Part shown: piece after piece, positions 5,028 through 32,891 of the stretch
Numbering within the stretch: position 1 is the stretch's first letter
How the letters are laid out: every line of letters starts with the position of its first letter
DNA from: Streptosporangiales bacterium
Lineage (GTDB): Bacteria; Actinomycetota; Actinomycetes; Streptosporangiales; Streptosporangiaceae
Direction of reading: 5' to 3'
Assembly (NCBI GenBank): GCA_009784565.1
Contig: WRBL01000020.1
Location: forward strand, 1 to 36,952
Length of the DNA stretch: 36,952 nucleotides
The notes under the pieces: model-generated
Told to the model about the DNA's origin: nothing
Databases searched by the model: none
Seen by the model: the letters and a program-made list of their open reading frames with translations, nothing else
Made by a program: the position numbers and the translations under genes

Positions 5028-5340
5028 TCATGCATGGCACTCGCCCGGGTCCGTGGTTGCGCGGGGCTGGCCCTGCTGGAGACGGCGGGTCCCGCCCGGC
5101 AAGCCGACGCCAGGCGCAGGCGAAACGGCCCACGTAAGGCGACTTCTCGTCGACCGATCACGGTGCGCCTTAGAGGTAAGTCCTGCCTCGACGGGGAATA
5201 CAGAGTTCCCTGGACCGAGAGAAGGGCAGTAGTGGCCATGGAAGGCCGCGAACCTCTCAGCAGGCGGATGTGGGGTCGAAGACCAGGTCGGCCGGGCGGG
5301 TGCCCACCATCGGTCCATGGATCCGTAGGGGGAAAACCAG

Positions 5341-27169: not shown

Positions 27170-27210
27170 AGAACCTCAAACCCGTTAGGACCTAACGGGT
27201 TTGAGGTTCT
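27170..27210. terminator. Perfect 41-bp palindromic terminator
   Basis: Arms of 19-20 bp (27170-27189 and 27191-27210) are exact inverted copies around one central base; the inner part reads CCCGTTAGG and CCTAACGGG. It lies just after the prfB stop and touches the stop codon of the convergent zinc-ribbon gene. No T-tract follows, but the stem is very stable and serves both directions. Confidence 0.8.
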
Positions 27211-27394
27211 AGGGAAGCACGTGGGCCGCCAGCAGCAGGCACAGGACGGCGATCAGCGCGATCGCGATGAGGACCTGCGGAGTCAAGCCGGAGGGGTGAT
27301 GATGTACGCGTGCCTTCGCCTCGCGGCAAGCCGCGCAGCGACCCTCCACGACCGGGCCGTTGCAGTTCGCGCAGATCAGGTGCTCACAGCTCAT
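27209..27394 (-). CDS. Small zinc-ribbon membrane protein
   Basis: This is a 61-residue protein with an N-terminal zinc-ribbon-like module (CEHLICANC with Cys3, Cys8 and Cys11; then VVEGRCAAC with a CxxC), a His-rich linker ARVHHHP, and one C-terminal transmembrane helix (about residues 41-59: VLIAIALIAVLCLLLAA). It is probably tail-anchored with the metal site in the cytoplasm. The ATG at 27394 has GAAGGGG six bases upstream; a longer frame from 27484 lacks a site. The function is unknown. It is convergent with prfB and divergent from ftsE. Confidence 0.65.
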   Translation of the reverse strand: MSCEHLICANCNGPVVEGRCAACREAKARVHHHPSGLTPQVLIAIALIAVLCLLLAAHVLP

Positions 27395-27606
27395 TTGTAC
27401 CCCTTCTGGTAGCAGTGCCCGGGTCCACTTGGCGTGATCTGCAGCCTTGCCTGCTTTTTTCCCCCTAGACTGTTCCCTGGCCAACCCAGGTTACCCCCAG
27501 GTTGCCCGGCTAGGCCGGAAATACCCCCCCGTGGCGGACGCTCGCGCACCGGGCTGGCCCGTGCGTCGGCAATCTCCGTCTTCGTCGAGATCTTAGTGAT
27601 GGTCCC

Positions 27607-28299
27607 GTGATCAACTTTGACAACGTCTCCAAGACCTACCCGCACCAGAACCGGGCTGCGCTGGAGAACGTCAACTTGTCGATCGACAAGGGTGAGTTCG
27701 TCTTCCTGGTCGGGCCGTCCGGGTCGGGCAAGTCGACCTTCCTGCGCCTGATCCTCAAGGAAGAGCGGCCGACCGGAGGCCAGATCCACGTGGCAGGCAA
27801 GGACCTGGCCCGCATCGCCAACTGGAAGGTGCCGCACCTGCGGCGCCGGATCGGCTGCGTGTTCCAGGACTTCCGCCTGCTGCCGAACAAGAACGTCTAC
27901 CAGAACGTCGCGTTCGCGCTCGAGGTCATCGGCAAGAACCGGCGCTTCATCCGCCGGGTCGTGCCCGAGGTCATCGACCTCGTCGGCCTGGAGGGCAAGC
28001 ACGACCGGATGCCCAACGAACTGTCGGGCGGCGAGCAGCAGCGAGTCGCCGTGGCCCGGGCGTTCGTCAACCGGCCGATGATCCTGCTGGCCGACGAGCC
28101 AACCGGGAACATCGACCCCGCGACCTCGATCGGCATCATGAAGGTGCTCGACCGCATTAACCGCACCGGGACCACGGTCGTGATGGCCACGCACGACGCG
28201 GCCATCGTGGACTCGATGCGCAAGCGCGTCATCGAGGTCGAGTACGGCAAGATCATCCGTGACCAGGTTCGCGGAGTCTACGGACAGAACAGCTACTAG
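27607..28299 (+). CDS. ftsE: Cell division ATP-binding protein FtsE
   Basis: FtsE is the ATPase of the FtsEX complex, which activates peptidoglycan hydrolases at the division site. The 230-residue protein carries the Walker [11 protein letters not shown]-loop [19 protein letters not shown] (FtsE-typical), signature LSGGEQQR, Walker [11 protein letters not shown] and switch His in MATHDAAIV. The GTG at 27607 has no clear ribosome site and may be leaderless. ftsX follows after an unusually long gap of 123 bp. In most bacteria the two genes overlap or nearly touch. Confidence 0.96.
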
Positions 28300-28422: not shown

Positions 28423-29328
28423 ATGCGTTCGAACTTCGTGCTCCAGGAGATCTGGATCGGACTGCGCCGGAACCTCACCATGACGGTCGCGCTCATCGTG
28501 GTGGTGGCCATCAGCCTGTCCATGCTCGGGACCGGCGTGCTGTTCATCCAGCAGGTCAACCAGACAAAGTCGTACTGGCAGAGCCGGGTCGAGATTTCGG
28601 TGTACCTCTGCACCGCGAACAGCGCCAACCAGAACTGCAAGGGGGCGGCGACACCCGCGCAGGTCGACGGCATCAGGCAGACGCTGAGCTCGATGCCGCA
28701 GGTTCAGTACGCGAAGTACCAGTCCCAGCAGCAGGCGTACTCCCTGTTCAAGCAGTACTTCGCCAACGACTCCTCGTACGTCAACACGGTGTCGCAGAAC
28801 GAGATGCCGTCCTCGTTCGAGGTGAAACTCAAGAACCCGTCCACCGATTACAACGTGGTCGCCAGCGCCGTCACCGGCAAGGCGGGAGTGGACTCGGTCA
28901 TCGACGAGATGACCATCCTGAACAAGTTCTACAAACTGCTCGGCGGCTTGCAGAACGGCGTCTTCATCGTCGCGCTGATCCTCATCGTGGCGGCGGTCTT
29001 GCTGGTCGGCAACACCATCCGGCTCTCGGCCTTCAACCGAAGGCGGGAGACCGGCATCATGAGACTGGTCGGCGCGTCCAACTTGTATATCCAGATGCCG
29101 TTCCTCCTGGAAGGCATCATCGCCGGGCTGATCGGCTGGGTCATCGCGTCCGTCTTGCTCATCGGCGTCAAGTCGCTGCTGCTGAATGAGTTGCAGCAGT
29201 ACTTCAGCTACAACGTCGGTCTCTCGACGATGGACCTGGTGGAAGTCATCGGACTCGCGATGCTGGTCGCGATTGTCCTGTGTGGCGTGACCTCCTTCGT
29301 GACGCTGCGCAGATACCTTCGGATCTAG
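28423..29328 (+). CDS. ftsX: Cell division permease-like protein FtsX
   Basis: FtsX is the membrane partner of FtsE. The 301 residues give TM1 (about 17-41), a large extracellular domain (about 42-180), and TM2-TM4 (about 183-205, 225-255, 272-297). The extracellular domain has a Cys pair in VYLCTANSANQNC, typical of actinobacterial FtsX, where this region binds a hydrolase such as RipC. The cytoplasmic coupling segment RLSAFNRRRETGIMRLVGAS is well conserved. The ATG at 28423 follows a purine-rich ATAAGG. No hydrolase gene follows directly; smpB starts 9 bp after the stop. Confidence 0.95.
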   Translation: MRSNFVLQEIWIGLRRNLTMTVALIVVVAISLSMLGTGVLFIQQVNQTKSYWQSRVEISVYLCTANSANQNCKGAATPAQVDGIRQTLSSMPQVQYAKYQSQQQAYSLFKQYFANDSSYVNTVSQNEMPSSFEVKLKNPSTDYNVVASAVTGKAGVDSVIDEMTILNKFYKLLGGLQNGVFIVALILIVAAVLLVGNTIRLSAFNRRRETGIMRLVGASNLYIQMPFLLEGIIAGLIGWVIASVLLIGVKSLLLNELQQYFSYNVGLSTMDLVEVIGLAMLVAIVLCGVTSFVTLRRYLRI

Positions 29329-29337
29329 GGTTGACGT

Positions 29338-29811
29338 GTGGCCAAAGAGAAGAACGACGGCAACAACAAGGTCATCGCCCGGAACCGACGGGCCCGGCAT
29401 GACTACGCCATAGAGGACGTCTACGAGGCGGGCCTCGCGCTGACCGGCACCGAAGTGAAGTCACTGAGGGCCGGCCGCGCGTCGCTCGCGGACGGGTTCG
29501 CGCTGGTGTCAGACGGGGAAGTCTGGCTGCATAACGTTCATATCCCGGAGTACGCGATGGGCACGTGGACCAACCACACGCCGACGCGGACCAGGAAGCT
29601 GCTCTTGCACCGGGGGGAAATAGAGCGCCTGATCCGGAAGACCACGGAGCAGGGGCTCACACTGGTCCCGCTGTCGCTGTACTTCAAGGACGGCAAAGTC
29701 AAAGTGGAGCTCGCAGTTGCCCGCGGAAAACGGACATACGATAAGAGGCAGGATCTGGCTAAGCGAGATGCCGCCAGAGAGGTCGAGCGTGCCCTACGGC
29801 GACGACGATAA
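29338..29811 (+). CDS. smpB: SsrA-binding protein SmpB
   Basis: SmpB binds tmRNA and delivers it to stalled ribosomes for trans-translation. The 157-residue protein has the full family core: [35 protein letters not shown], then [48 protein letters not shown] and the C-terminal tail [21 protein letters not shown]. That tail enters the empty mRNA channel. The GTG at 29338 begins [19 protein letters not shown]. Its RNA partner ssrA lies 2.7 kb downstream on the same strand. Confidence 0.97.
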
Positions 29812-29826
29812 GTCCGGAGGCGGACG

Positions 29827-32085
29827 ATGACCGCGCGGTCGCGTGAATGGGGTGCCGGGGCACCCGTCGGCTACGGCCCGCCGGGCGGCACCGTGCCGCC
29901 GGGCGATGAACCCGTGCAGCGGGCGGGGCACGCGCCGTTGCCGGGAGAGGGCCCGCCGCCCGCGGTGACCGAGCACGGGTTCGTGCCGGTCCCGGGGAAG
30001 ATAGCGCTGCCGACGGAGACACCGTCGCCGGAGGAGACGCCGGCGCCCGAGACAGCGGCGGAAGCGGCGAAGATGCCGTCGCTGGTGGAGACGCCGGAGC
30101 CCGTGGAAACGCCGGCGCCGGCGGAGATGCCAGCGCCGGGTCCCGCGCCCGCTCCCGCGCCAGCCGCGCCGCCGCGCAACGGCGGGCACCGCAAGCCGGC
30201 CGCGCCCGCCCGGCGCCCGCTGGTGCCCCGTAAGGCCAAGCTCGCCGGGGCGCTGATCGGCGTCGCCGGGGTGATCACCGCCGGATTCCTCACCGGCTTC
30301 GGCAAGCAGGGGTCCCCGGAGTCCACGGTCCAGGCTTTCCTGCTCGACTGGCAGCAGGGCAACTACCAGCAGGCGGCGGCCTTTACCACGGGTTCGAGGT
30401 CCGTCGTGGCGGCGCAGCTGTCGTCCGCCTACAGCGACCTCAACTCCAGCGCCACGTTCTTGTCCCTCGGGCCGGTCCGGCAGCACGGAGACACCGCCTC
30501 GGCGACCTTCAAGGCGACCGTCGACGTCGACCAGGGGCGCCACCAGTGGAACTACACCGGGCACCTGGGCCTGATCTCCAAGAACGGCAACTGGTTCGTC
30601 AACTGGTCGCCCGGCGTGATCAATCCCAGCCTCGGCCCGGGGGACCGGCTGGCCGTGACCGCCTCCTACCCGCAGCGCGCGCCGGTCACCGACTCCGCGG
30701 GCCAGTCGCTCGTGCCGGAGACGCCCGCCTACCACATCGGCGTGATCCCGGGCCGCCTGACCAGCATGGCCAAGACGGTGCGGGCGTTCAGCGGCATCGC
30801 GCAGCTGGATCCCAAGCAGGTCCTGGGCGAGGTCCGGGCCGCCCCGCCCGGTCAGTTCCTGTCTCTCCTGACCGTGGACCCGGCGACCTTCAAGACGCTG
30901 TGGCCTCGCCTGTCCGCGGTTCCGGGAGTGGGCGGCCAGGTCAAGAAGGAACGCCTGTTCGTCTCCGGCACCACCGGAGCCGGGGCGCTGACCGGGAGCG
31001 TCGGGACGGAGAACTCATCCGCCCTGCAGGCCGCCGGAGTCGCCTACGAGCCGGGTAACACGATGGGCCTGGGCGGGCTTGAGCAGACCTACCAGGACAC
31101 GCTGGCCGGTACGCCGGCGGCCTCGGTCGTCGTGGTCAACTCCGCGGGCAAGGAACTGTCCACCCTGTGGACGGCCCCGGCCCATGCCGGGACCCCGGTG
31201 AAGACCACCCTGGACAGCGGCGACCAGGCGGCCGCCACCCGGGCGCTCGCCAGCCGCCCGAACTCCGGCGAGATCATCGCGGTCGACTCCGGGACCGGCG
31301 ACATCAAGGCCCTGGCCACGCATGACGGCCCCGTGCCGTTGCCGGCGGGAGGACCGCTGAACACAAGGATCGCTCCGGGCATGGCGTTCAGCATCGTGTC
31401 CGCGGCGGCGATGATGAACGCCGGGATGCAGCCCGGGACGCCGATGCCGTGCAACAGCAGCGAGGCGATCGGCGGCCAGACGTTCACCTACACCGGGCAG
31501 AAGGCACCCGCGACCCTCGCCTCCGACTTCGCCCGGGGCTGCGGGACCGCGTTCGCCAGCATGGCGGCGAAGCTGACCCCGCAGCAGCTCGCGGCGTCGG
31601 AAAAGGCTTTCGGGATCGGAGGCGACTGGGACCTGCCCGTGCAGGCGTTCCCCGGCTCGGCCCAGTCCGCGTCCGCGGGAGCGGGCCTGGCCTCGCAGGT
31701 CACCGGGACCAGCGGCGTGCTGATGAGCCCGCTGGGCATGGCCGCGGTGGCGGCCGAGGTCGACTCGGGTACCGGGCACGCCCCGGTCCTCGTTCCCGGC
31801 GGCTCGCAGGCCGCACCGTCCCAGCCGCCGCTGTCGCCGGAGCAGCTCACCGGACTTCGCCAGATGATGCGCGGCGCGGTCCTGTCCGGGACGGCGAAGA
31901 CGGCGGGCTCGCCCGGCGCCCCGGTCTACGGGCAGGCGGGCGTGACCCGGAACGGGCAGCACGGCTTCCTGAGCTGGTTCGTGGGCTACCGGGGCACGAC
32001 GGCGGTCGCCGTCCTGCAGGCCGGGAACACGCCCCAGCAGGCCGCCGCCTCCCTGGCGGGCGCGTTCCTGTCCCAGGTGCACTGA
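29827..32085 (+). CDS. Penicillin-binding-protein-like protein with degenerate transpeptidase motifs
   Basis: The 752-residue protein has a disordered Pro/Glu/Ala N-terminus (1-135, ETPAPE-type repeats), a transmembrane anchor at 139-157, a MecA_N/NTF2-like domain (about 163-270), a dimerisation-like region, and a C-terminal transpeptidase fold. The catalytic motifs are gone. The SxxK box of PGSTFK type reads PGMAFS (Met519 and Ser522 in place of Ser and Lys). The SxN box reads GCG (571-573). The KTG box before the conserved WFVGY reads QAG (703-705). It therefore looks like a pseudo-transpeptidase that may scaffold or regulate cell-wall synthesis. It follows smpB by 15 bp, and a GGAGG box precedes the ATG. 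No frameshift is seen, so it seems maintained. Confidence 0.82.
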   Translation: MTARSREWGAGAPVGYGPPGGTVPPGDEPVQRAGHAPLPGEGPPPAVTEHGFVPVPGKIALPTETPSPEETPAPETAAEAAKMPSLVETPEPVETPAPAEMPAPGPAPAPAPAAPPRNGGHRKPAAPARRPLVPRKAKLAGALIGVAGVITAGFLTGFGKQGSPESTVQAFLLDWQQGNYQQAAAFTTGSRSVVAAQLSSAYSDLNSSATFLSLGPVRQHGDTASATFKATVDVDQGRHQWNYTGHLGLISKNGNWFVNWSPGVINPSLGPGDRLAVTASYPQRAPVTDSAGQSLVPETPAYHIGVIPGRLTSMAKTVRAFSGIAQLDPKQVLGEVRAAPPGQFLSLLTVDPATFKTLWPRLSAVPGVGGQVKKERLFVSGTTGAGALTGSVGTENSSALQAAGVAYEPGNTMGLGGLEQTYQDTLAGTPAASVVVVNSAGKELSTLWTAPAHAGTPVKTTLDSGDQAAATRALASRPNSGEIIAVDSGTGDIKALATHDGPVPLPAGGPLNTRIAPGMAFSIVSAAAMMNAGMQPGTPMPCNSSEAIGGQTFTYTGQKAPATLASDFARGCGTAFASMAAKLTPQQLAASEKAFGIGGDWDLPVQAFPGSAQSASAGAGLASQVTGTSGVLMSPLGMAAVAAEVDSGTGHAPVLVPGGSQAAPSQPPLSPEQLTGLRQMMRGAVLSGTAKTAGSPGAPVYGQAGVTRNGQHGFLSWFVGYRGTTAVAVLQAGNTPQQAAASLAGAFLSQVH

Positions 32086-32511: not shown

Positions 32512-32883
32512 GGGGGTGAACGGTTTCGACTTCGGTAGTTGATCTAGGGGAAGCGAGCCGAGGACGGCGGTTGTAACCTCGTTAATACTGCGACCGCAAA
32601 CCTATAAGTGCCAACTCTAAGCGCACTGCCTCCACTTTCGCCCTTGCGGCTTAAGTAATATGAGGCTGTCAGCCCGGGAGCGCCTTCGGCCCGGATCCTG
32701 GCATCAGCTAGAAGGCTTTACTGGTCGGCCCGGTCACGGGGTCGGCTAGGACATCAAACAGTGACTGAGCCCGTCGGCGACTTGCCTGCGTGATCGCCGG
32801 GGCTGAGAAAAGCACAGCAGGCTGCGCTCGGAGAAGCCCTAGTGAGGTGCTGAAGGACGCGGGTTCGATTCCCGCCACCTCCA
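32512..32883 (+). ncRNA. ssrA: tmRNA (SsrA)
   Basis: tmRNA rescues stalled ribosomes and tags the nascent chain for proteolysis. The 5' end GGGGGTG (32512-32518) pairs with CACCTCC (32876-32882) as a 7-bp tRNA-like acceptor stem, followed by discriminator A at 32883. The family 5' motif GAACGGTTTCGACTTC and a T-arm GCGGGTTCGATTCCCGC are present. The tag frame runs from 32610 to 32651 with TAA at 32652, encoding ANSKRTASTFALAA, an actinobacterial-type tag ending in ALAA. The genome reads ACCC after the acceptor stem, so the 3' CCA is not fully encoded and must be completed by tRNA nucleotidyltransferase. SmpB is encoded upstream. Confidence 0.97.
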
Positions 32884-32891
32884 CCCATCAC

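Follow-up and report, generated by a model that had tools for sequence, protein, structure and literature searches.

We report a homologue of the MecA_N class B penicillin-binding proteins (PBPs) which, as read from its sequence, fails the tests for the residues that define these enzymes, although its descent from a known PBP family is clear. The gene lies at 29827..32085 on the forward strand of the window, the whole stretch of 36,952 nucleotides that was analysed from a Streptosporangiaceae genome. The explanation that we favour, and consider probable, is a catalytically dead, anchored class B PBP that scaffolds or regulates wall synthesis through binding by its MecA_N-pedestal module. PBPs have been studied mainly as enzymes and drug targets, and the usual way to test for roles that do not depend on catalysis is to engineer mutants; here a natural version of the catalysis-removal experiment would be provided by an entire family of soil actinomycetes. 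Since the active ancestral form appears to persist at the same locus elsewhere, the two offer a clean comparison of the protein surfaces that matter without catalysis. A search of the open-access literature, with subscription papers mostly outside its scope, did not turn up any account of a naturally occurring pseudo-PBP at this locus. Genes of the clade match the Pfam transpeptidase model above its cut-off, and are therefore easily misread as penicillin-binding transpeptidases.

Degenerate motifs in a predicted transpeptidase fold

The open reading frame comprises 752 codons, starts with ATG, has GGAGG upstream and begins 15 bp after the smpB stop codon. Its product shows the domain order of the PBP2a/PBP5-type class B PBPs, namely an NTF2-like MecA_N domain (residues 163-272; 30313..30642), a PBP_dimer or pedestal domain (residues 281-446; 30667..31164) and a transpeptidase domain (residues 484-742; 31276..32052), each scoring above the curated Pfam cut-off and encoded on the forward strand. 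Within the last of these domains, M519-A-F-S522 (31381..31392) occupies the position of the SxxK motif, G571-C-G573 (31537..31545) that of SxN and Q703-A-G705 (31933..31941) that of KTG. An alignment with solved class B PBPs, among which the chains of Enterococcus faecium PBP5 are the closest relatives by sequence, places the STFK of that protein on M519-A-F-S522, and an alignment of 110 proteins sets the GCG and QAG triplets on SxN and KTG. The motifs had been described as degenerate in an initial annotation, and both the alignments and the structural model described below bear this out. The other transpeptidase-domain genes found in the same genome, with motifs read off their sequences, have SxxK and KTG intact.

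An AlphaFold2 model was obtained with high confidence (mean pLDDT 92.8, pTM 0.89) from 67 aligned sequences, in which the MecA_N and Transpeptidase domains were matched in 67 and PBP_dimer in 57. In this model, numbered as residue minus 149, M519 is found at the first turn of helix 369-382, the SxxK-carrying helix, residues 571-573 form a loop between two helices, and Q703-G705 fall within strand 551-560, which carries KTG. Because the motif positions fall on the expected elements of a confident model, their loss is not a misalignment, and the predicted structure is one in which the cleft is built and the catalytic chemistry is missing. Full-length Foldseek comparisons returned Bacillus subtilis PBP3, Staphylococcus aureus PBP2a and E. 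faecium PBP5 (E about 1e-35 to 1e-33), while the C-terminal part aligned with beta-lactam-bound transpeptidases at VIA-align Z scores of up to 39.9. These three proteins, the best structural and sequence matches, share the MecA_N, PBP_dimer and Transpeptidase order of the pseudo-PBP, but identity to the solved MecA_N PBPs is only 16-20% and the catalytic motif residues that they possess are lost.

Motif loss across relatives

Relatives were found by searching genome contigs with an alignment-based profile. Each of the 36 further genomes sampled from the GTDB family of the source has an orthologue directly 3' of ftsX-smpB (34 complete copies and two cut by contig ends). The Trebonia genus set, Nonomuraea gerenzanensis and one sister-family genome likewise have smpB-linked orthologues. 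Two apparent absences were rejected, the copy being split over two contigs in one genome (G018) and cut by a contig end in the other (G019).

The lost clade is represented by 47 smpB-linked sequences spanning 17 numbered genera and the Trebonia group. In the alignment, the lysines of both SxxK and KTG are lost throughout (47/47 each); the nucleophile serine of SxxK is lost in 44 of the 47, and SxN has lost its asparagine in 43 and its serine in 38. The MecA_N PBPs used for comparison, which come almost exclusively from the same genomes, retain S, K, S, N, K and G in 61 of 61 cases, and thus serve as an internal control against both misalignment and sequencing error. Loss of both lysines in 47/47 smpB-linked proteins versus 0/61 other MecA_N PBPs is, at the level of sequence, a pattern far beyond chance. 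The underlying MecA_N search covered 41 genomes of the order and yielded about 105 places, nearly all of which were aligned. One intact MecA_N PBP from a genome of the same genus (L017, in G007) was considered as a counterexample and rejected, as it is not linked to smpB and clusters with the other MecA_N PBPs.

Within the genus the gene is present in all eight genomes, including that of Trebonia kvetii, which makes the source genome Trebonia-like, and the seven other copies are 50-66% identical, nearly full length and free of stops, with motifs reading MAFS, MTLS, MTFS or IAFT, then GC(G/F/D), then QAG. More distant copies from metagenome-assembled genomes read MTFT/GCG/QSG (L039), TAFT/GCG/QTA (L040) and TAFS/ACA/QQG (L041), and in N. 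gerenzanensis, where the gene order is prfB-ftsE-ftsX-smpB-PBP, the motifs are TAFS/GCV/VRA. The proposal that related genomes might share the same substitutions at 519, 522, 571-573 and 703-705 was therefore correct for the loss itself, which is common to them, but not for the exact letters. Across the lost clade, position 519 is T, G, M, E, S, I, P, F or A, position 522 is S, T, G or Q, position 573 is V, T, G, N or others, and position 703 is Q, V, I or L. C542 and C572, between which we infer a disulfide, are invariant in lost and active proteins alike.

Origin of the lost clade

In four genomes from two other families (three from family f3 and one from family f9), the gene that follows smpB keeps STFK/SCN/KTG, and the intact motifs at this same locus indicate that the gene began as an active enzyme. 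These active MecA_N PBPs, which are predicted lipoproteins, share with the pseudo-PBP its place behind ftsE-ftsX-smpB, its domains and its tree neighbourhood, and differ from the clade in the motifs, which are intact in one and lost in the other. A maximum-likelihood tree of 112 proteins, obtained by a quick search with no bootstrap, separates the 47 lost proteins from all others at a branch with an SH-aLRT of 100, and the 51 smpB-linked proteins at one with an SH-aLRT of 92, the lost clade sitting beside the intact smpB-linked PBPs. Loss throughout a family, confined to one clade and with the predicted fold preserved, strongly supports the earlier designation of pseudo-transpeptidase.

A smpB-linked PBP from family f2 (L123, in G008) reads SVFQ/SCT/LAG, in which the serine is kept and both lysines are lost, and this form may be an intermediate. 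Across the class, a PBP was found behind smpB in three of 30 loci (two from the family of the source and one from f9), some of the 30 holding little DNA 3' of smpB. Weak matches of one query inside smpB in this survey were rejected as an artefact, arising from an open reading frame that runs upstream over smpB.

Selection and domain constraint

Every complete copy of the pseudo-PBP has an open frame. The closest pair (L036-L037) has an overall dN/dS of 0.11, with 0.12 for the transpeptidase domain, and 14 other close pairs give 0.17-0.41 in that domain, compared with 0.04-0.29 for active orthologues in the same genomes; these values were obtained by the NG86 method, which is rough on high-GC genes. 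The initial annotation had taken the intact frame as an argument for selection, and the open frames across relatives, together with dN/dS values of about 0.1-0.45 for the transpeptidase domain across the compared pairs, confirm from the sequences that the pseudo-PBP is under continued purifying selection. In one pair the pedestal reached a dN/dS of 1.10.

Relative to sets of active orthologues from the same genomes, divergence of the pseudo-PBP was 0.59-0.78 times in MecA_N, about equal in the pedestal (0.91-1.15) and 1.43-1.62 times in the transpeptidase domain. This comparison of sequences shows that, relative to active relatives, the transpeptidase domain has lost constraint and MecA_N has gained it, although for MecA_N the reference was a set of paralogues in which this domain may itself evolve unusually fast. 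The ranking of domains was obtained by plain identity and is independent of the NG86 estimates. Because the transpeptidase domain also remains constrained, the function of the protein need not reside in MecA_N alone.

Membrane anchoring and a proposed role in wall synthesis

A membrane anchor is predicted at residues 139-158 (30241..30300, forward strand) from reading of the sequence, and is preceded by a Pro-rich tail that is presumably cytoplasmic. In smpB-linked PBPs outside the Trebonia group, whether intact or lost, a lipobox is located just before MecA_N; that of L138 reads TAACAAEPS and was missed by the search pattern. The Trebonia group, comprising the source gene and L032-L041, has exchanged this lipobox for a transmembrane anchor, a hydrophobic helix that lacks the lipobox cysteine and lies behind a long Pro-rich N-terminal tail.

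We propose that an ancestor of Streptosporangiaceae-type actinomycetes made a dead PBP from an active smpB-linked MecA_N lipoprotein PBP. On the outer surface of the membrane, to which a lipid would anchor it in most genera and a transmembrane helix in the Trebonia group, the resulting protein would not cross-link, and on established PBP chemistry beta-lactams would be unable to acylate it. Its MecA_N-pedestal module may bind nascent peptidoglycan or a partner, whether an active PBP or some other protein of wall synthesis or division, and the bound protein would then scaffold or regulate the wall synthesis performed by the active PBPs of the genome. From the shift in constraint, together with the existence of class B PBPs having catalysis-free roles, we infer an anchored scaffold or sensor of peptidoglycan synthesis.

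Such roles have precedents. In B. subtilis PBP2b, catalysis is dispensable while the protein is essential, with PBP3 supplying the activity (PMC12713402), and S. aureus PBP1 has roles beyond catalysis (PMC9426605). Both PBP2b and the S311A form of Clostridioides difficile SpoVD keep their role without transpeptidation, as proposed here for the pseudo-PBP (PMC12713402), but these proteins are active in nature, their catalysis being dispensable or removed in the laboratory, whereas the loss described here is natural, fixed and old. By its title, PBP2a entry 3zg5 contains a peptidoglycan analogue at the allosteric site, and the idea that the N-terminal part binds the wall is accordingly open to testing. 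As the gene is inherited together with ftsEX, a search for its role would best begin with division-associated wall synthesis. That the pseudo-PBP serves, family-wide, to scaffold or regulate synthesis of this kind, its structural role having been separated naturally and fixedly from the enzymatic one, is a narrower proposal that we regard as plausible and put forward tentatively.

Alternative explanations

The pseudo-PBP could instead pair with FtsW, RodA or an extra SEDS glycosyltransferase and act as its activator, with an active PBP supplying the cross-links, an alternative that we consider unlikely while giving it some weight. Class B PBPs activate SEDS proteins allosterically, and can do so even when catalytically inactive (PMC12713402). 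The smpB-linked proteins also keep a part of the pedestal, near residues 300-380, that is missing from 59 of the 61 other MecA_N PBPs. A transmembrane helix is part of the usual SEDS contact, however, and relatives outside the Trebonia group are predicted lipoproteins without such a helix; nor was a SEDS gene seen in the neighbourhood inspected.

Retention of the cleft scaffold and of the two cysteines would also suit a sensor of beta-lactams or wall damage, in which the empty cleft binds stem peptides or beta-lactams non-covalently and signals. We judge this improbable, given that known chemistry offers no reason to expect acylation once the serine and both lysines are gone, that the variation of the former catalytic positions across the clade is a poor fit to one conserved ligand site, and that no sensor kinase adjoins the pseudo-PBP. 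It is more improbable still that the protein has stayed catalytic by using other residues in the same cleft: the invariant C572 adjoins the cleft and some members keep Ser, Thr or Glu at 519, but no conserved replacement set is seen at 519, 522, 573 and 703, and C542 and C572 are equally invariant in active proteins. The 1.4-1.6 times faster divergence of the transpeptidase domain than in active orthologues of the same genomes might indicate a pseudogene on its way out, with catalysis lost and the rest decaying, but the survey and selection results already largely refute this very improbable reading, since the gene is present in 36/36 other family genomes with the frame open in every complete copy, dN/dS in the transpeptidase domain is low and MecA_N is more conserved than in active relatives.

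Gene neighbourhood and additional observations

As the initial annotation had noted, the gene follows ftsEX and smpB, with ftsE (27607..28299), ftsX (28423..29328) and smpB (29338..29811) all upstream on the forward strand. On its other side, ssrA (tmRNA; 32512..32886, forward strand) starts 426 bp past the pseudo-PBP, and most of the relatives tested likewise have the pseudo-PBP between smpB and ssrA. This placement could be taken as a sign of shared function in trans-translation, yet such a partnership is highly improbable, as trans-translation takes place in the cytoplasm, whereas the predicted location of the domains is outside the membrane. smpB and ssrA often adjoin anyway, so that insertion between them suffices to explain the position of the gene. 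The same consideration bears on the divisome role put forward in the initial annotation, and on our preferred anchored scaffold in so far as it is linked to division: the gene order does suggest such a role, and only suggests it, but lying between smpB and ssrA the gene could owe its place to old gene order alone, and the ftsEX-smpB-ssrA arrangement may be without functional meaning.

The tmRNA tag in the source is ANSKRTASTFALAA. For another locus (L122, 4799-5166), ARAGORN gives an aberrantly long tag, DSDSVGLRASPPQGPASLGDSPVRSGHGA, in which the start of the tag has probably been misread. Elsewhere in the window, positions 5040-5300 on the forward strand match the raiA RNA (RF03072; 143.7 bits), a large structured RNA. 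Between prfB and ftsE, the reverse strand (27209-27484) encodes a small protein that combines a CxxC...CxxC pattern with a hydrophobic helix at its C-terminus and is conserved in the same place out to Nonomuraea.
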